Shown: positions 3,974-28,252 of the stretch, in pieces
Layout of the letters: each line of letters starts with the position of its first letter
How positions within the stretch are numbered: the first letter of the stretch is position 1
Virus record (IMG/VR): IMGVR_UViG_3300042565_002788
Coordinates: 1-39,468 of that record
Origin: a virus
Length of the DNA stretch: 39,468 nt
Reading direction: 5' to 3' (one strand)
The notes under the pieces: model-generated
What the model saw: the letters and a program-made list of their open reading frames with translations, nothing else
Told to the model about the DNA's origin: nothing
Database searches by the model: none
Translations under genes and position numbers: made by a program

Positions 3974-5317
3974 ATGCCCCCTCGCACCAACTACGAGACC
4001 ACGCCATCGCCGATGGACCGCGTCCAGCGGCGCCTCGGCGCAGGGCTGACGCCGCAGGCCATCACCGTCACGCAGCGCGCGGCGGATGAGGGGCGCATGG
4101 CGCTCTGGGCAGACCTTCTCGATGAGGTCCGACAGGGCGACCCGCACCTGCACGGCGACCTCCAGAAGCGAGAGTTGAGCGTCGCGGGCGCGGACTACGA
4201 GCTGCGCCTCCCGACAGGCGCCACGAAGCGCGCAGGCGCCACCGCGCTGAGGCTCTGTCAGGACGCCATCGAGGCCATCGCACCGCCCGCAGGATCGCTC
4301 GCCGTGAGCTTCCGCGGGGCGATGCAGAACCTGCTCACGGCGAACTGGCACGGGCGCGCGGCCGTCGAGATGGTGTACTCGCGGGACGGTCGCTACACGA
4401 TCCCCACCGAGGCGTATCCAATCCACGCGCGGCGCCTCTCGTGGTCCAACGACCTCGATTGGCGGCTCTACCTGTACGACGAGACGACGGGCGACACGCG
4501 CTTCTCTCGCTTCCCGGGCGTGCCGTTCAGCGACCGCGCGCTCTTCCCCGCGGGCAAGATCCTGCTGCACACGCCGCGGATGTTCGGCACCTACCCGACG
4601 CGCGAGGGGCTCGGCCGCGCGCTCGTGTGGTACTCCGCGTTCAAGCGGTGGACCGTGCGCGATTGGCTCGCCTTCGCGGAGTGGGCGGGCCGCGGGCTGC
4701 GCGTGGGCAAGTACGCCACGGGTCGTGATCAGAAGAACGACGCTCGCGCCAACGAAGAGGACAAGGCTGCGTTGGAGGATGCCCTCGTCGCGATGTCATC
4801 GACGGTGGCGACCATCATCCCAGACGTGACCGACTTGCAGGTGATCCCGCCGCACTCGACGGAGGTTCACGCCGACCTCGTGAAGCTGTGCAACGGCGAG
4901 ATGAGCAAGGCCATCCTCGGCGGCACGCTCACGAGCGACCCGGGCGACCGCGGCGCGCGCTCACTCGGTGAGGTGCACCTGCGCGCGATGACGCAGCTCC
5001 TCAAGAGCGACGCGGAGAACCTTGCGGACACGCTGCGCCGCGACCTCTTCGGCCCGCTCGTGCGCATGAACCTCGGCGACCGCGCGCCGGTGCCGCACAT
5101 CGTGTTGAACGTCGAGCCGCCCGAGGATGCGAAGTCCCGCGCGGAGCGGCTGAAGATGTACATGGAGCACGGCCTTTCCGTCGGCGCCGAGTGGGTGCGC
5201 GACATGGAGGGCATCCCCTCGCCGCAGCCCGGCGAAGAGGTCATCGGCGGGCGGCCCGTCGCGGCGCCCGCACAGCCCGCACCCACGGCCACGGACCCGA
5301 CCGACACGGGCGAGTGA
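3974..5317 (+). CDS. Portal protein, DUF935 (Mu gp29-like)
   Basis: 447 aa, starting 3 nt after the terL stop. Early RRLGAGLTPQAI, LWADLLDEVRQGDPHLHGDLQKRELSV and the later KWYSAFKRW-like stretch (ALVWYSAFKRWTVRDWLAF) match the DUF935 portal family. ELRL...AIEAI and the central acidic region are also as expected. It forms the dodecameric DNA channel at the head vertex. The C-terminal tail is Pro/Ala/Thr rich. The stop overlaps the ATG of the next gene. Confidence 0.9.
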   Translation: MPPRTNYETTPSPMDRVQRRLGAGLTPQAITVTQRAADEGRMALWADLLDEVRQGDPHLHGDLQKRELSVAGADYELRLPTGATKRAGATALRLCQDAIEAIAPPAGSLAVSFRGAMQNLLTANWHGRAAVEMVYSRDGRYTIPTEAYPIHARRLSWSNDLDWRLYLYDETTGDTRFSRFPGVPFSDRALFPAGKILLHTPRMFGTYPTREGLGRALVWYSAFKRWTVRDWLAFAEWAGRGLRVGKYATGRDQKNDARANEEDKAALEDALVAMSSTVATIIPDVTDLQVIPPHSTEVHADLVKLCNGEMSKAILGGTLTSDPGDRGARSLGEVHLRAMTQLLKSDAENLADTLRRDLFGPLVRMNLGDRAPVPHIVLNVEPPEDAKSRAERLKMYMEHGLSVGAEWVRDMEGIPSPQPGEEVIGGRPVAAPAQPAPTATDPTDTGE

Positions 5318-7119
5318 TGGCGGTCTACGACGGGATCAACTTCCGCCCGCCGGCCGGTGTGCGGAGCGCCTGCGCGCGCGGCATCGCGCTGCGCGAAGAG
5401 GGCTACGGCGGTGACGGTCTCCAGCCCGAGACGGTCGCGTGGGCGCGGCGCCTCTCGGCGGGTGAGCGCATCTCCCCGGAGAAGGCGCGAAAGATGAACG
5501 CGTGGTTCGCGCGACACGGCGCGAGCCCCGAAGAGAACCGAGCGCGGCGTGAGGACAAGACCTCGCCCGCGTGGGTCGCGTGGCTGCTGTGGGGCGGCGA
5601 CGCAGGGCGCTCATGGAGCGCAAGGCTGGTGCGACAGATGGACGCGAGAGACAAGGCCGCGCGCACGTCGCGCACGATGCAGGGCGTCGGCGTGAAGCTC
5701 GACGCGATGGTGGGCGGCGGCGGTGACTCGCCGTGGAACGTGCTTGCCTACGAGGTCGCGCTGCAAGGCCGCGGGGACGTGGCGCTCACGCGCGCGGACT
5801 TCGAGCAGTGCATCGCCAACTTCATGCGGTGGGGCAAGGAGGTCCCGGTGGTGCTCTACCACGCGGACACCGATCCGATGTCGCACCCGATGGCGCGCGA
5901 GGCGCACGCGTGGATCACCGCGATGCGCGTCGGCTCCATGATGCGCGACGGCAAGACGGTCGCGACCCTCGAAGCCCGCTTCCGGTGGGTCAACGCCGAG
6001 ACGCGCGCCAGCGTGGAGCGCGGCGCCCTCGCGTATGGGTCCGTGACCCTCGTGCAGAACGGCGTGGACGAGGAGAGCGGCGACGACGTGGGGAGCTTCC
6101 TCTGGTCGTTCTCGCTGACCAACAACCCCGCGCTGGTCGACATCCCGCGCATCGCCGCGCAGCACATCGCAGCGTCGGCGGCGACGATCCGCGCGGGGCG
6201 CTACTACGGCACCGTCGAAGACCGCGACGACGTGCTCGCCATGCTGCGCGCGGAGTTGATGCTCCCCGCGCTCGCATCCGAGGCCGACGTGATGCGCGAG
6301 GTCGACAAGCTCGCCGCGTTGATCGGGTCCGGCGAGGACGAGACCGGCGTCGATGTGGACGACATCATCGAGTGCATCCGTGAGGCGATGCGCCTCCCCG
6401 CGCTCACCACCGCCGACGAGGTCATCGCCGCGGTCCGCAAGGCTCTCGCGTCGCCATCGAGCGACGCACAGAACTCGGCCAGCAACGCGCTGCCGATGCA
6501 CCGCGGGCACGCGCCCGCCTCTCTCCGACAGGAGTTCACCATGTCTCACACGTTCATCACCCTCGCGGCGCGGCTCGGCATCGCCTGCACCGACGAGGGG
6601 GCCGCGCAGCAGCAGGTGCTTGCGCGTGCCGAGGAGTCGCTCCCGATCCGCCGTCAGCTCGGGCTGTCGGTGGAGGCGAGCGCCAAGGATGTCACCGCCC
6701 GCATCGAGGCCCTCACCGCCGACGCCGCCCGCGTCACCGCGCTCTCCGCGGAGGTCGAGGCCCTCAAGGTCATCGAGGCCGACCGCGCCGCCCGCGAGGT
6801 CGCCGCGCACGTCGACGCGCTCTGCGCCGACCCCGCGATGGCCCGCTCGCGCGTGGCCCTGGAGGCGTTCGCCCGCGCCGACTACGCGGCCTTCTCGAAG
6901 GCGTACCCGCGCCCCGCGCACGGCGCCGTGTCGACGCTGTCGCAGCGCGTGACCGCGCCCGCCTCGGAGTCGCCGTCGCACCTGAGCGACGAGGCCGACT
7001 CGCACACCGACCGCGCCGACGTGCTCGCCCATGAGCTCATGGCGAAGACCCCCGGGCTCTCCTACGCCGTCGCGCTGTCGCGCGCCTCGTCCATCCTCGT
7101 GCAGAAGGCGGTGTCGTGA
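5317..7119 (+). CDS. Fusion: LLWGGD-type N-terminal domain plus Mu I-like head protease and scaffold
   Basis: 600 aa. Residues 8-108 form a module known from many phage proteins: PPAGVRSACARGIALREEG, the ISPEKARKMNAWFARH helix, and WLLWGGDAGRSWSARL. Residues about 130-290 match the Mu I protease family, with VPVVLYHADTD near 175, GALAYGSVTLVQNG and the signature FSLTNNPALVDIP. The remaining Ala/Glu-rich part (from about 409) is a scaffold that also has its own start (see 6541). The protease processes scaffold and head proteins in the prohead. A separate MuF-like (gp30) gene usually found between portal and protease is missing. Confidence 0.88.
   Translation: MAVYDGINFRPPAGVRSACARGIALREEGYGGDGLQPETVAWARRLSAGERISPEKARKMNAWFARHGASPEENRARREDKTSPAWVAWLLWGGDAGRSWSARLVRQMDARDKAARTSRTMQGVGVKLDAMVGGGGDSPWNVLAYEVALQGRGDVALTRADFEQCIANFMRWGKEVPVVLYHADTDPMSHPMAREAHAWITAMRVGSMMRDGKTVATLEARFRWVNAETRASVERGALAYGSVTLVQNGVDEESGDDVGSFLWSFSLTNNPALVDIPRIAAQHIAASAATIRAGRYYGTVEDRDDVLAMLRAELMLPALASEADVMREVDKLAALIGSGEDETGVDVDDIIECIREAMRLPALTTADEVIAAVRKALASPSSDAQNSASNALPMHRGHAPASLRQEFTMSHTFITLAARLGIACTDEGAAQQQVLARAEESLPIRRQLGLSVEASAKDVTARIEALTADAARVTALSAEVEALKVIEADRAAREVAAHVDALCADPAMARSRVALEAFARADYAAFSKAYPRPAHGAVSTLSQRVTAPASESPSHLSDEADSHTDRADVLAHELMAKTPGLSYAVALSRASSILVQKAVS
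6541..7119 (+). CDS. Nested scaffold protein (Mu Z-like) from an internal start
   Basis: In-frame ATG at codon 409 of the protease gene, preceded by ACAGGAG with an ideal 6-nt gap. The 192-aa product is helical and Ala/Glu/Arg rich, with a coiled-coil-like core (LTADAARVTALSAEVEALKV) typical of head scaffolds. Nested scaffolds inside the protease gene are known for Mu (Z in I) and lambda (Nu3 in C). The internal ribosome site is seen directly; its use is inferred. Confidence 0.75.
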   Translation: MSHTFITLAARLGIACTDEGAAQQQVLARAEESLPIRRQLGLSVEASAKDVTARIEALTADAARVTALSAEVEALKVIEADRAAREVAAHVDALCADPAMARSRVALEAFARADYAAFSKAYPRPAHGAVSTLSQRVTAPASESPSHLSDEADSHTDRADVLAHELMAKTPGLSYAVALSRASSILVQKAVS

Positions 7120-19971: not shown

Positions 19972-20364
19972 ATGGCGACCATCACCACGTTCACCCGCGC
20001 ACGCCCCGCTGACTCAACGCAGGCCGTCGCGTCGCAGGATCTCACGCCGTCCGCGCTCGGGCGCCTCGGGTCCGTCGTGGTCACCGAAGACCCCGCGCAG
20101 GATGGCGGCGCATCGGTCACGGTGCGAGAGGATGCCTACTCTTGGACGGGGCCGCTCGGCGCGAGCGTTGACCCTCGCACGGGGCGTCCCTTCCGCGCAG
20201 CACCGTGGGTGCCCGCGTACCCGACCGACCTACTTGCGCTCGCCACGGAGCTGCCCCTGAGCGCGTACCTCACCACGTCGCAGACCTCCTACGGCGGGCT
20301 CGTCGCCGCGGTCGCTACCATCCTCGGCGGGTGGGGCTGGACCTACGCGACGGAGACGGTCTAG
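19972..20364 (+). CDS. Hypothetical tail-region protein
   Basis: 130 aa, 3 nt after the gp47-like gene. It has a disordered-looking N-terminus (TTFTRARPADSTQAV) and a hydrophobic, aromatic C-terminus (GGLVAAVATILGGWGWTYA). No family recognised. It is not at a place where Mu has an extra gene (gp47 is followed directly by gp48). Its TAG shares the tetranucleotide CTAG with the stop of the leftward lipoprotein. Confidence 0.65.
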   Translation: MATITTFTRARPADSTQAVASQDLTPSALGRLGSVVVTEDPAQDGGASVTVREDAYSWTGPLGASVDPRTGRPFRAAPWVPAYPTDLLALATELPLSAYLTTSQTSYGGLVAAVATILGGWGWTYATETV

Positions 20365-20990
20365 CCGCGCTCGCACCGCGACGTGCGGGCGTTGCACACG
20401 AAGCCCGCGCCGCAGACGTATCCGCACTCCGCGCAGTTGTACCGCGGGCCGTTCGGGTCGACACAGAGGGCAACGCCGCACGCCACAAGCCCCGGCGCGC
20501 AGCGGTGGACGCACATGCCCTGTGAGCACGCGGGCACGCTGCCCACCCCGCGCGCAGCACACCTCACCCCGCAGGCGCCGCAGTTCGCGGGGTCGACGGC
20601 GAAGCTGTCCACGCACGTCGAGCCGCAGAGGTGTGGCGGGTCGCACGCCACCACGTCGCGCGACGGCTGCGGCGGGGCCACCACGTCGGGCTCGATGACC
20701 ACATCAGCGGTCCTCGCGGCGTCGGACGATGCGGCGTCGCTGGAGCCCGTTGCGGGCACGTCGGCAGGCGGGACGGGCGTTGCCGCGTCGGGGGCGTCAG
20801 CGGGCACGGGCGGGGCCTCCGCGGGGCAGGAGCACGCGCTCACGGTCCCGGCCTCGTCGCAGACCTGCGCGCCGGCGACGCCGCCGGGGCAGACACACGC
20901 CGCGGTGGTGCCAGGGGTGCAGTCCCGCGGCGCGAGCTCGGCGGACACAGAGCACCCGAGGGCGAACGCAGCGGCGATGAGGTGGCGCAT
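20361..20990 (-). CDS. Cysteine-rich lipoprotein moron with Stig1-like motifs
   Basis: 209 aa on the strand opposite to all neighbouring tail genes. The start chosen gives a lipoprotein-like signal: MRHLIAAAFALGCSVSAEL (Cys13). CTPGTTAACVCPGG and AQVCDEAGTVSACSCP follow, then a Pro/Ala/Asp-rich linker, then CGSTCVDSFAVDPANCGACG and two further 'C..C' units. The NCGACG pattern is frequent in secreted proteins of Myxococcota. Predicted to be exported and displayed on the lysogen or dying cell; superinfection exclusion or adhesion are possible roles. No ribosome site is visible before the ATG. Confidence 0.78.
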   Translation of the reverse strand: MRHLIAAAFALGCSVSAELAPRDCTPGTTAACVCPGGVAGAQVCDEAGTVSACSCPAEAPPVPADAPDAATPVPPADVPATGSSDAASSDAARTADVVIEPDVVAPPQPSRDVVACDPPHLCGSTCVDSFAVDPANCGACGVRCAARGVGSVPACSQGMCVHRCAPGLVACGVALCVDPNGPRYNCAECGYVCGAGFVCNARTSRCERG

Positions 20991-21076
20991 GGGCGTCACT
21001 TTACGCTTGACCCTGCGAAGATTCCATGACGCGACGGATTCGCCACCGCGTCGCAACTCGTGTACCCTCCCCCGCG
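20991..21076. promoter_or_regulatory. Divergent start region between moron and gp48-like gene
   Basis: Leftward: TAAAGT (minus strand, 21003-20998) ends 7 nt before the lipoprotein ATG. Rightward: TACCCT (21063-21068) ends 8 nt before the gp48-like ATG. Both -10-like hexamers would place the start point at or next to the ATG, i.e. leaderless messages. No good -35 accompanies either, and no Shine-Dalgarno is seen for either gene. Confidence 0.4.
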
Positions 21077-25179: not shown

Positions 25180-25650
25180 ATGCACCCCGCGCTGCAGATC
25201 GCCCTCGGTGTCGCCTCTCTCGCGGTGGTGCTCTCGCAGATCGTCGCGCGGTGGGGCGGGCGTGCGCAGCGGCAGGAGAGCGATGGGCGCGTGCTGGAGC
25301 GCGTCGAGGGCGCGGCGCAGTCCCAGGCGCTGACCGGCGCGACGCTGTCGGCCACGCTGCACACGCTCACCGAGACCGTCGCGAAGATGCACGCCACGCT
25401 CGACGGCGTGGCCTCGAAAATGGGCGTGCACGACGTCGCGGTCGCCGAGGCGCGCGTGAAGGCCGACGCAGACCGCGACCGCGTGACGCGGCTGGAGGCG
25501 CAGGTCACCGACGCCGCCGCGCGCCTCGTCGATGTCGACCACCGGCAGACCGAGGCGCGGCACACGCTGCGCGCGGAGATGCACACGGCAATGGCGGCGC
25601 TGCGCGCCGAGGTGATCAATGCTCCACGCTCTGCTCGTCGAGGATCATGA
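25180..25650 (+). CDS. Membrane-anchored coiled-coil protein at start of the lysis region
   Basis: 156 aa; GTG 25177 and ATG 25180 are both possible. One N-terminal membrane segment (LQIALGVASLAVVLSQIV, residues about 4-21) precedes a basic stretch. About 110 residues of heptad-like coil follow (VAVAEARVKADADRDRVTRL and neighbours). The layout is that of an inner-membrane spanin or of an XhlA-type holin partner. The end overlaps the receiver-domain gene by 32 nt. Confidence 0.65.
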   Translation: MHPALQIALGVASLAVVLSQIVARWGGRAQRQESDGRVLERVEGAAQSQALTGATLSATLHTLTETVAKMHATLDGVASKMGVHDVAVAEARVKADADRDRVTRLEAQVTDAAARLVDVDHRQTEARHTLRAEMHTAMAALRAEVINAPRSARRGS

Positions 25651-26008
25651 CGGGCACGCCGCGCTGGTGGCCGACGGCCTCCGTGGGCTCGCGTGGATAC
25701 AGCGCGTCACCACGCTCGCGGAGGCCCGCGCGGTGCTCCGCGTGGCGGTGCCCGACGTGGTGCTCTGCGACCTGCGCGGCACGTCGGACGTGTCGCCCAC
25801 CGAAGCCGCGAGCGACCTGCGCCTCGCGCTCGACAGCGCGGGCGCGTCGATCCGCGCGCGTGTGCCGCTGGTGCTCACGAGCGGGCTCGACCCCTACGTC
25901 CTCGACAAGATCGCGGGCGCGCTCGTCAACACCCACGCGCTACCCAAGCCCTTCTCCTGCAACGGCCTACGCGCACTCATCGAGCGCGTCACTGGAGTGA
26001 CCTCATGA
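25619..26008 (+). CDS. Stand-alone response-regulator receiver domain
   Basis: 129 aa, just the size of a CheY-like REC domain. The start has GAGG 6 nt upstream. Key residues are all present: acidic pair in LLVEDHD (E8, D9), phosphoacceptor D51 in VVLCDLRG, Thr87 in LVLTSG, and Lys110 in LPKPF. The order and spacing match CheY (D12/D13, D57, T87, K109). No output domain or kinase is encoded nearby. It is nested between a membrane coiled-coil gene and a holin candidate, with overlapping starts and stops, so it is probably co-translated with lysis genes. It could tap host histidine kinases, plentiful in myxobacteria. Confidence 0.8.
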   Translation: MLHALLVEDHDGHAALVADGLRGLAWIQRVTTLAEARAVLRVAVPDVVLCDLRGTSDVSPTEAASDLRLALDSAGASIRARVPLVLTSGLDPYVLDKIAGALVNTHALPKPFSCNGLRALIERVTGVTS

Positions 26009-26307
26009 CATCGTCTCAGCTCCTCTCCTGGCTCTCGGACCACGCGGCCGCGCTGTGGCCCGTCGTCTCCGCGCTGCTCCTCGTGGCGCTGCGCTCGCGC
26101 ACCCCAGAGCAGTGGGTCGCCCTGGGCGAGACGTCGCCGCGGTGGCAGGGCGCGATCCGCCTGCTGCGCGCGGTGGGCCTCGACCCCGCGAAGGCGCTCT
26201 CGGCCCTCGGGCAGATCGTGACCGGCCGCGCCCCCGCGCGTGCCGTGCAGATCGCCGACACCGTCCAGCGCGCGACGCAGGCCCCGCCGCCCCCGGGAGG
26301 CGCGTGA
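26005..26307 (+). CDS. Holin candidate, one membrane segment
   Basis: 100 aa, ATGA overlap with the receiver gene and GGAG upstream. A single hydrophobic stretch (AAALWPVVSALLLVALR, residues 13-29) and a charged, helical C-terminus with a Pro-rich end (APPPPGGA). Small size, one membrane span and location just before the endolysin fit a class III-type holin or pinholin; assignment is by context. Confidence 0.55.
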   Translation: MTSSQLLSWLSDHAAALWPVVSALLLVALRSRTPEQWVALGETSPRWQGAIRLLRAVGLDPAKALSALGQIVTGRAPARAVQIADTVQRATQAPPPPGGA

Positions 26308-26627
26308 TGGGCGTCGGCCACCCCGTCGTCCCCTCCAGGGACTCTCTCGCGCGTGCAGGCCTGCGCCTCGCCGCGGTGATCCTCGTGGCCGTCGTGGCGG
26401 GGCTGCTCGCCAGCGGCTGTCCCTCGCCGCGGTTGCCCGTGGTCGAGGGCTGCACCGTCGGCGCCTCGCGGTGCCGCGCGGACCGCCCGCAGGTGTGCTC
26501 CTCGACGGGCCGCTGGCACGACGTGGGCGACCTCGCCTGCGCCGCCTCCGGGGCCGTGTGCGTCGAGGGTGACGCGGGCGTCGCGCACTGCGCCCTCGCG
26601 ACCGATGGAGGCTCCGATGTCCGCTGA
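26307..26627 (+). CDS. Small cysteine-rich lipoprotein in the lysis region
   Basis: 106 aa behind GGGAGG. Signal segment LRLAAVILVAVVAGLLASGC, a clear lipobox with Cys38. The mature part has a spaced Cys pattern (GCTVGASRCRADRPQVCSSTG, cut here to the first units) continuing to C97 or so. This 'C..G...C.....Q.C...G.W' pattern is typical of myxobacterial surface proteins. An outer-membrane spanin partner for the coiled-coil membrane protein at 25180 is possible; equally, a surface moron. Confidence 0.68.
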   Translation: MGVGHPVVPSRDSLARAGLRLAAVILVAVVAGLLASGCPSPRLPVVEGCTVGASRCRADRPQVCSSTGRWHDVGDLACAASGAVCVEGDAGVAHCALATDGGSDVR

Positions 26628-27276
26628 CCTCCGCCCCGTCGCCGCAACGCTCACGCGCGAACTCTCCGCGCGCTACCACACCGACGTGGTCACGCCCGAT
26701 TCGTGGCAAGTCGTGCTCGCGCGACTCGCCGCGCAGGGTGCCGCGCTCGGGCTCGGCGCGATCAACAGCACGCTCGCAGGGTGGGCGCGCGAGGCGTTCG
26801 ACGCCCTCGACCCCGCGACCTCTTCGCGCTCCGTCTGCCTCCCGCAGATCGGCGGCGAGGGTGCCGTGGTGGTGATGTCCGCCGCCGCGCTCGCTGACCC
26901 CGTCGAGAACGTCGAGACCATCGCGCACGAACACGAACACGCGCGGGTGCTGCGCGCCGATCCCGACCTCCAGGTCGCGATGGACTACACCTCGGGCGAG
27001 CTGCGCGCGACGACCGAGGCCCGCGCCTACGCGGTCGGGGCCTTCGCCCGCTACCTCGTCACAGGCGCATGGCAGACGGCCGACGAGATCGTCGCGCCCC
27101 TCGCGCACGGGTACGCCCTCGACGCCGCGACGCGCGAGCACTGCGCGGTCATCGTCGCGTCGGCGCTCGCCTCGATGCGCGCGGGTGTGGTCCCGCCCTT
27201 CGAGGTGTGCGGCGTGGTCCTCGATGTGCTCCGCGCGAAGCACCCCGAGGCCATCGTGGCAGAGGCGTTCCGGTGA
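26617..27276 (+). CDS. HEHEH zincin-like protein
   Basis: 219 aa, GGAGG 5 nt before the ATG, overlapping the lipoprotein gene by 11 nt. The motif HEHEH (residues 104-108, TIAHEHEHARVL) fits HExxH, and Glu134 in ELRATTEARAYAVG is a plausible third zinc ligand 26 residues on, as in gluzincin proteases. The rest is helical. No signal peptide. Located between lipoprotein and endolysin; could be a lysis or virion-processing metallopeptidase. Family not recognised. Confidence 0.6.
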   Translation: MSADLRPVAATLTRELSARYHTDVVTPDSWQVVLARLAAQGAALGLGAINSTLAGWAREAFDALDPATSSRSVCLPQIGGEGAVVVMSAAALADPVENVETIAHEHEHARVLRADPDLQVAMDYTSGELRATTEARAYAVGAFARYLVTGAWQTADEIVAPLAHGYALDAATREHCAVIVASALASMRAGVVPPFEVCGVVLDVLRAKHPEAIVAEAFR

Positions 27277-27518
27277 CCCTCGAAGCCCGCATCGCAGAGC
27301 TTCGCGCGCTCGCGCCTGGATGGCTCGACGGCGACGGCGAATCGGTCACAGAGTCCGCGCTGTCGACTGCGGCGCGCGTCGCGCGCATCGTCGCCGCGTG
27401 CGGGCGAGAGCCGCGGATCTTCCCGCTCCCCTGCGGCGGCGCGACCGTCGAGTGCGACGCGGTGGACGTGTACCTCGGCGCGGACGGCGCCGTCGAGAGC
27501 ACCACGGAGGATCCGTGA
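27273..27518 (+). CDS. Small conserved-type protein (LDGDG motif)
   Basis: 81 aa from GTG overlapping the previous stop. GWLDGDGESVTESAL followed by a helix and PRIFPLPCGGATVEC resembles a widespread small bacterial domain of unknown function with 'GWDG.G' and 'P...GG...EW' motifs; here the terminal EW is EC. Ends in GTGA overlap with the endolysin gene. Confidence 0.55.
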   Translation: MTLEARIAELRALAPGWLDGDGESVTESALSTAARVARIVAACGREPRIFPLPCGGATVECDAVDVYLGADGAVESTTEDP

Positions 27519-28252
27519 GCGGTCGACTCTCGCAGGCTGAGCGCGCGTCCCTCGGGCTGTCCGCGGGCGGGCTCATCGTCAACGGCGTGCGCGTGCCGGT
27601 CCCCGGCGTGAGCGTGACGACGTGGCTCGATGACCCGCGCCGCGCGCCGCCGATCACCGACGGGCGCAGCATCACCGCGCCGCCGCGGGCCTTCGTGTGG
27701 CACACATCGAAGGGGGTCCTCTGTCGCGCCGCCGCACCCGATGCGATCCCGTCGACGATGGCCGAGACGCTCGCGCTCTATCAGTCGCGCACCGCGCGCG
27801 AGGTGTCGTGGCACCTCACCGTCGACACCGACGGCGACGTGCTGCAGCAAGCCGACCCCGCGCGATGGCAGTGCTGGCACGCGGGCGGCGCGAACGCCTG
27901 GAGCCTCGGCGCCGAGCTCGTACAGCGCGACGCCACGGGCACGCTCACGGCGCCGCAGATCCGCGCCGCCGCCGACGTGACCGACGCGACGTGCGCCGCG
28001 CTCGGCATCCCGCGGCGTGTGCTCGTGGGCCTCGACGGCACGCCGTGGGTGCGGCAGGTCAAGGACCTCCAGAGCACAAGGGCCGGAGGTCGCGGGCTGA
28101 CGTGGGCGGGGGTCATCGGACACGTTCACCTCACGACCGACCGCGGCGCGGGTGATCCAGGGCCGCTGATCTTCGCGGAGCTGATCGCCCGCGGGTATGC
28201 GCGGCACGTCGTCAGCGCCGAGGGGCGCATCGCGCGGGAGCCGCTGCTGTGA
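27515..28252 (+). CDS. Endolysin, N-acetylmuramoyl-L-alanine amidase (Amidase_2)
   Basis: 245 aa. The domain spans about 55-222: FVWHTSKG (H63, first zinc ligand), VSWHLTVDTDGDVLQQ (H100), WHAGGANAWSLGAELV, and GHVHLTTDRGAGDPGPLIF (H203 and D214 as remaining ligands). This is the T7 lysozyme/PGRP fold that cuts the bond between muramic acid and L-alanine in peptidoglycan. There is no signal peptide, so release through a holin is expected. The last 20 residues are an extra tail. Confidence 0.9.
   Translation: MSGRLSQAERASLGLSAGGLIVNGVRVPVPGVSVTTWLDDPRRAPPITDGRSITAPPRAFVWHTSKGVLCRAAAPDAIPSTMAETLALYQSRTAREVSWHLTVDTDGDVLQQADPARWQCWHAGGANAWSLGAELVQRDATGTLTAPQIRAAADVTDATCAALGIPRRVLVGLDGTPWVRQVKDLQSTRAGGRGLTWAGVIGHVHLTTDRGAGDPGPLIFAELIARGYARHVVSAEGRIAREPLL

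Follow-up and report, generated by a model that had tools for sequence, protein, structure and literature searches.

Receiver (REC) domains that stand alone are known from cellular regulators such as CheY, Spo0F, EpsW, CpdR and Sma0114/SdrG, while the timing of phage lysis is usually explained by the build-up of holin and by membrane potential. Receivers are already known in viruses as well: BFVD includes CheY-like proteins and hybrid kinases, and jumbo phages carry the cyclic-phosphate-processing receivers (cRec), divergent REC folds that are phage-borne like the one described here and are linked to NAD and RNA-repair genes, not to lysis genes (PMC7824862). Phage inhibitors of two-component systems have also been described: PIT4 of phage LSL4, an early protein for which host histidine kinases are likewise the expected target, binds to kinase domains and is not described as a REC or as lying in a lysis unit (PMC10714779). 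In a limited literature search, we found no report of a stand-alone receiver gene in a lysis cassette or region unit.

The locus presented here comes from the virus contig IMGVR_UViG_3300042565_002788, of which positions 1 to 39,468 (39,468 nt, the whole stretch analysed) are called the window. The window has a GC content of 71% and includes terminase, portal, tail sheath and baseplate genes, which makes the phage a contractile-tailed one. At 25619-26008 on the + strand, exactly where the original prediction had placed it, an ORF running from ATG to TGA encodes a 129 aa protein that shares with the cellular regulators named above the REC fold, the acidic pair, the phosphoacceptor Asp, the Lys-Pro and the lack of an output domain. 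It differs from them in being phage-borne and located inside a lysis-region gene pair, in its longer β3-α3 region with a conserved RG..D, and in having Ala107 for the aromatic switch. Among cellular proteins, the closest relative found (about 38-41% identity) is a REC at the C-terminus of a hybrid-kinase-like protein, whereas the phage domain stands alone. We compared the window with four other IMG/VR contigs carrying different metagenome ids, of which L001, L002 and L003 were found via the REC and L026 via the neighbouring coil gene; three records are fragmentary.

The receiver domain and its active site

Sequence comparison and modelling together confirm that the product of 25619-26008 is a stand-alone REC domain, in agreement with the original call. 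The AlphaFold2 model, whose input alignment included cellular RECs, has five alternating strands and helices (mean pLDDT 92.7, pTM 0.88), and its matches among solved structures (Foldseek, VIA) are dominated by receiver domains; the best VIA matches are response-regulator receivers, with Z 15.4-16.7 over ~118-120 residues. Used as a single sequence, the protein matched only Response_reg in Pfam, at 14.6 bits against a gathering cut-off of 30.2, a score that is a curation threshold and no biological feature. A PF00072 family search of the record itself gave no match at E 0.001, and a single-sequence PDB search found CheY2 only (E 0.35). We regard the sub-threshold PF00072 result as resolved, since alignment, profile and structure all support a REC. 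Response_reg is the sole family matching all five REC members (best E 9.2e-5), and a profile-profile comparison of the phage RECs with seven cellular RECs reached 99.2% probability over 117 columns, which is supportive but not independent because the cellular set was gathered by searching with the phage REC family.

All the active-site residues named in the original prediction (E8/D9, D51, T87 and K110) are present and placed in the model where an active REC site has such residues. With strands β1 at 2-7, β3 at 47-51, β4 at 84-88 and β5 at 105-109, E8/D9, D51 and T87 lie at the C-terminal ends of β1, β3 and β4, and K110 just past β5. E8, D9, D51 and K110 are identical in the five homologues, but residue 87 is not invariant, being Thr in four and Ala in L003; the neighbouring S88 is invariant. 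The aromatic-switch position (K-3, on β5) is Ala107 in all five, the canonical aromatic being absent, and this loss, along with the T87A change in L003, indicates that phosphorylation may not convert into a classic output. In each of the five contigs the REC ORF is free-standing, 125-130 aa long and devoid of an output domain.

Other identities for this ORF were considered and set aside. A spurious ORF of GC-rich DNA is ruled out by the positive coding score, the four in-frame homologues with the same neighbours, the Response_reg matches and the fold, and a non-REC Rossmann fold is rejected. We also consider a cRec enzyme improbable: the Pfam match is to ordinary Response_reg only, with none to cRec, the fold search places cRec models far down, with weaker matches than ordinary RECs, and the genomic neighbours are of lysis type. 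No prophage copy of the phage REC was found in GTDB genomes, which returned cellular RECs only, and 50,697 phage records yielded no relative of the REC, nor did GenBank phages yield any of the coil or the downstream protein; a cellular REC query of the GenBank phages hit, for the most part, ordinary regulators or host DNA in phage-labelled records.

Gene order and history of the unit

On the 3′ side of the tail genes, overlapping or closely packed genes run on the + strand from the coil gene through an Amidase_2 endolysin gene. The coil gene (25180..25650) encodes a small membrane protein of 156 aa, as judged from KD, flank charges and AlphaFold2 helices. The overlapping start and stop codons originally reported are there: the coil and REC frames share 32 nt (25619..25650), and the REC stop overlaps the downstream start by 4 nt (ATGA, 26005..26008). 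This downstream gene (26005..26307) encodes a 100 aa membrane protein with one transmembrane helix (~11-29), predicted N-out/C-in. The original prediction had named the two neighbours a coiled-coil membrane protein and a holin candidate, but the name holin has no family match behind it in Pfam, PHROGs or NCBIfam, and we keep the protein as a holin candidate; the coil protein likewise matches no holin family. Next come, all on the + strand, a gene for a predicted lipoprotein with an LLASGC lipobox (26307..26627), without family match in the same three databases and possibly an outer-membrane spanin-like partner; one for a zincin-like HExxH (HEHEH) protein (26617..27276), also without family match; a small gene (27273-27518); and the endolysin gene, encoding an N-acetylmuramoyl-L-alanine amidase (27515..28252; PF01510 E 6e-14, PHROG endolysin E 3e-13) and lying 1.5 kb beyond the REC gene. 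Ribosome-site-like sequences precede the REC gene (GAGG) and the next gene (GGAG), and neither a sigma-70 promoter-like site nor a meaningful terminator was found across 24.5-28.8 kb. In L002 (6390-end) and L003 (6387-6983), one frame covers both holin candidate and lipoprotein-like protein, with two transmembrane segments, a lipobox-like LTGC and a Cys-rich tail, and L003 has a weak homologue of the HEHEH protein, with HEWTH, in the same place.

The order coil-REC-membrane protein is kept in the window and the four other contigs, where the REC is 89, 70, 67 and ~50% identical to that of the window (L001, L002, L003 and L026, respectively). The coil/REC overlap is 29-32 nt in L001-L003 and 4 nt in L026, and the ATGA overlap is the same in all four relatives. 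In L003, other tail genes and another cell-wall enzyme region/endolysin surround the conserved trio, while in L026 the downstream membrane protein is only ~30% identical to that of the window. The original prediction had raised the absence or random decay of the gene in related phages; neither was seen, the REC being present in all five contigs found with the coil N-terminus, and random decay is rejected. The placement in a lysis region likewise has support, with the amidase endolysin adjoining and the trio recurring. A role in lysis is suggested by this position, by the amidase and by the fact that the coil/membrane-protein pair is found repeatedly close to putative cell-wall hydrolases.

The coil protein consists of one N-terminal transmembrane helix (~5-23), an Arg-rich juxtamembrane segment and a long helix/coiled coil; modelled alone, AlphaFold2 gave long helices (3-31 and 42-146) with low pTM. 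No charge precedes the membrane helix and four Arg follow it, from which the charge rule predicts an N-out/C-in topology that would place the long helix in the cytoplasm, within reach of the REC. Residues 21-40 are invariant at 17 of 20 positions across the five REC-bearing contigs; the juxtamembrane motif of the coil reads ARWGGRAQRQ. Coil proteins are 155-173 aa long where a REC is present against 75-89 aa where there is none, and the juxtamembrane segment is missing from the REC-less coils. The coil is the best candidate for the REC partner, because L026 swaps the membrane protein while the coil N-terminus and the REC face stay. The L026 coil gene (5001-5522) is itself a mosaic, near-identical to the window over its first ~55 residues and strongly diverged in the remainder.

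Relatives of the downstream membrane protein also occur in unrelated phages (L007/L008/L039 and L038). In L008 and L038, the coil gene is short (89 and 75 aa, with an N-terminal transmembrane helix) and directly abuts the membrane-protein gene with no REC between, and no REC lies anywhere else in the L008 record; in the REC-less phages a lipoprotein and a cell-wall hydrolase, putative by sequence appearance, come after the pair. The REC-holin neighbourhood that was to be sought in other phages does recur, as the trio in the four other contigs, but less related phages keep the pair without REC. Since at least two such lineages keep the coil and membrane-protein genes adjacent, the simplest history looks like an insertion of the REC into an older two-gene membrane unit near the endolysin, a probable gain rather than loss. 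A membrane-protein profile run against 297 genomes from the phylum of L009's genome gave nothing convincing. A distant relative of the downstream protein lies in a 54 kb contig (L043, 2995-3489), where a pentapeptide-repeat protein is encoded nearby and the position directly upstream has no short coil gene.

Variable and constant faces of the receiver

Conservation is unevenly distributed along the five RECs, with 25 of 45 residues invariant at 84-128 against 15 of 74 at 10-83 (Fisher p 1e-4). The C-terminal half (α4-β5-α5) is the best conserved part, a result for which a single divergent sequence, L026, is largely responsible, and α1, usually the kinase-docking helix, is the most variable (0/8 invariant). 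In comparisons with L026, the dN of the two REC halves differs ~2.5- to 4-fold while the ranges of synonymous divergence overlap, thus selection is a simpler cause than recent recombination, which we consider unlikely; with a GC content of 71%, however, the synonymous sites may be almost saturated. Between the window and L001, the REC has 14 nonsynonymous to 10 synonymous changes against 6 to 20 in its two neighbours (p 0.02), making it the fastest-changing of the trio. Between the window and L002, the higher synonymous divergence of the REC (0.55, against 0.21 and 0.30) suggests an exchange of REC alleles between phages. Taken together, the alignments suggest a variable input (α1) and a constant output (α4-β5-α5).

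No HATPase_c or Hpt domain was found in the window and the four relatives, three of these records being fragments, so the host would have to supply the phosphate. A lead to that host is given by a gene on the opposite strand amid the tail genes (20361-20999, -), possibly a host-derived cargo gene, whose Cys-rich predicted secreted product resembles an MXAN_6577-like family (E 3e-8, below cut-off). Along with the GC content, this match points towards Myxococcota, as a lead only; the host is probably a myxobacterium and likely kinase-rich.

Proposed role and its alternatives

Our preferred reading, to which we give a probability of about 40%, is that a contractile-tailed phage captured the REC, which would serve as a host-kinase-coupled regulator of the lysis-region unit by acting on its cytoplasmic coiled coil. 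The REC would be produced together with the lysis proteins, and the phosphorylation state of D51 would be set by host histidine kinases or small phosphodonors. The conserved α4-β5-α5 face would then bind a partner that stays constant, most probably the juxtamembrane/coiled-coil part of the coil on the cytoplasmic side, and this binding could promote or restrain the membrane step of lysis depending on the state of the host. We infer the phosphorylation, the partner, the direction of the effect and the action of the unit in lysis. A single-domain regulator acting on a membrane protein has a precedent in Myxococcus, where EpsW~P works through its binding to a membrane enzyme (PMC12802240). A more specific version is possible though doubtful, namely a phage lysis switch reading host histidine-kinase signals, in which a phosphorylatable receiver would gate the membrane lysis protein post-translationally via the coil, its docking face tracking hosts while its output face is fixed.

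The main rival is a phosphate sink or decoy, in which the REC would take phosphoryl groups from host kinases or Hpt and blunt the late-infection host response, with its position in the lysis operon doing no more than timing expression; we consider it rather unlikely. The catalytic residues are all kept, there is no output domain, and no kinase was found in the phage records, an absence that fits sink, titration and lysis timing alike. The loss of the aromatic switch (A107) would be expected if output were unneeded and argues somewhat for a sink, as the variability of α1 and the excess of amino-acid change between the window and L001 would be expected of a domain tracking host kinases. That the closest cellular relative found sits at the C-terminus of a hybrid-kinase-like protein also agrees with a sink, and the lost switch resembles the intermediate RECs of hybrid histidine kinases, which can show no allosteric change upon activation (PMC9981736). 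However, a pure sink needs no conserved α4-β5-α5 face, yet this is the best conserved part, which argues somewhat against it, nor does it need the strict linkage to the coil gene seen in five of five contigs.

It is unlikely that the REC is host-derived cargo, late in the genome, unrelated to lysis (altering host behaviour, for example) and trapped by the overlapping frames. The positional nature of the lysis role and the same gene pair in REC-less relatives would agree with such cargo, but its site between the same two genes is constant in five contigs despite differing overlaps (29-32 and 4 nt), and the length of the coil partner correlates with REC presence. An adaptor or scaffold without phosphorylation cycling, either a CpdR- or RssB-like deliverer of a lysis or host protein to a protease or an assembly factor for the coil and membrane protein, is quite improbable, as the invariant acidic pair, D51 and K110 imply that phosphochemistry is kept, even though the switch residues are degraded and the single-domain regulator CpdR is the best NCBIfam match of the L026 REC (E 4e-4, below cut-off).

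The recurrence of the coil-REC-membrane protein unit in four other viral sequences suggests that lysis may be tied to the host signalling state. If the REC is a phosphate sink instead, the phage would have in it a means to counter two-component signalling in a host that is probably a myxobacterium and likely rich in kinases. If the host-kinase-coupled regulator is the true reading, the sensory kinases of the host would act directly on the timing of lysis, at the post-translational level and with no transcription factor in between.
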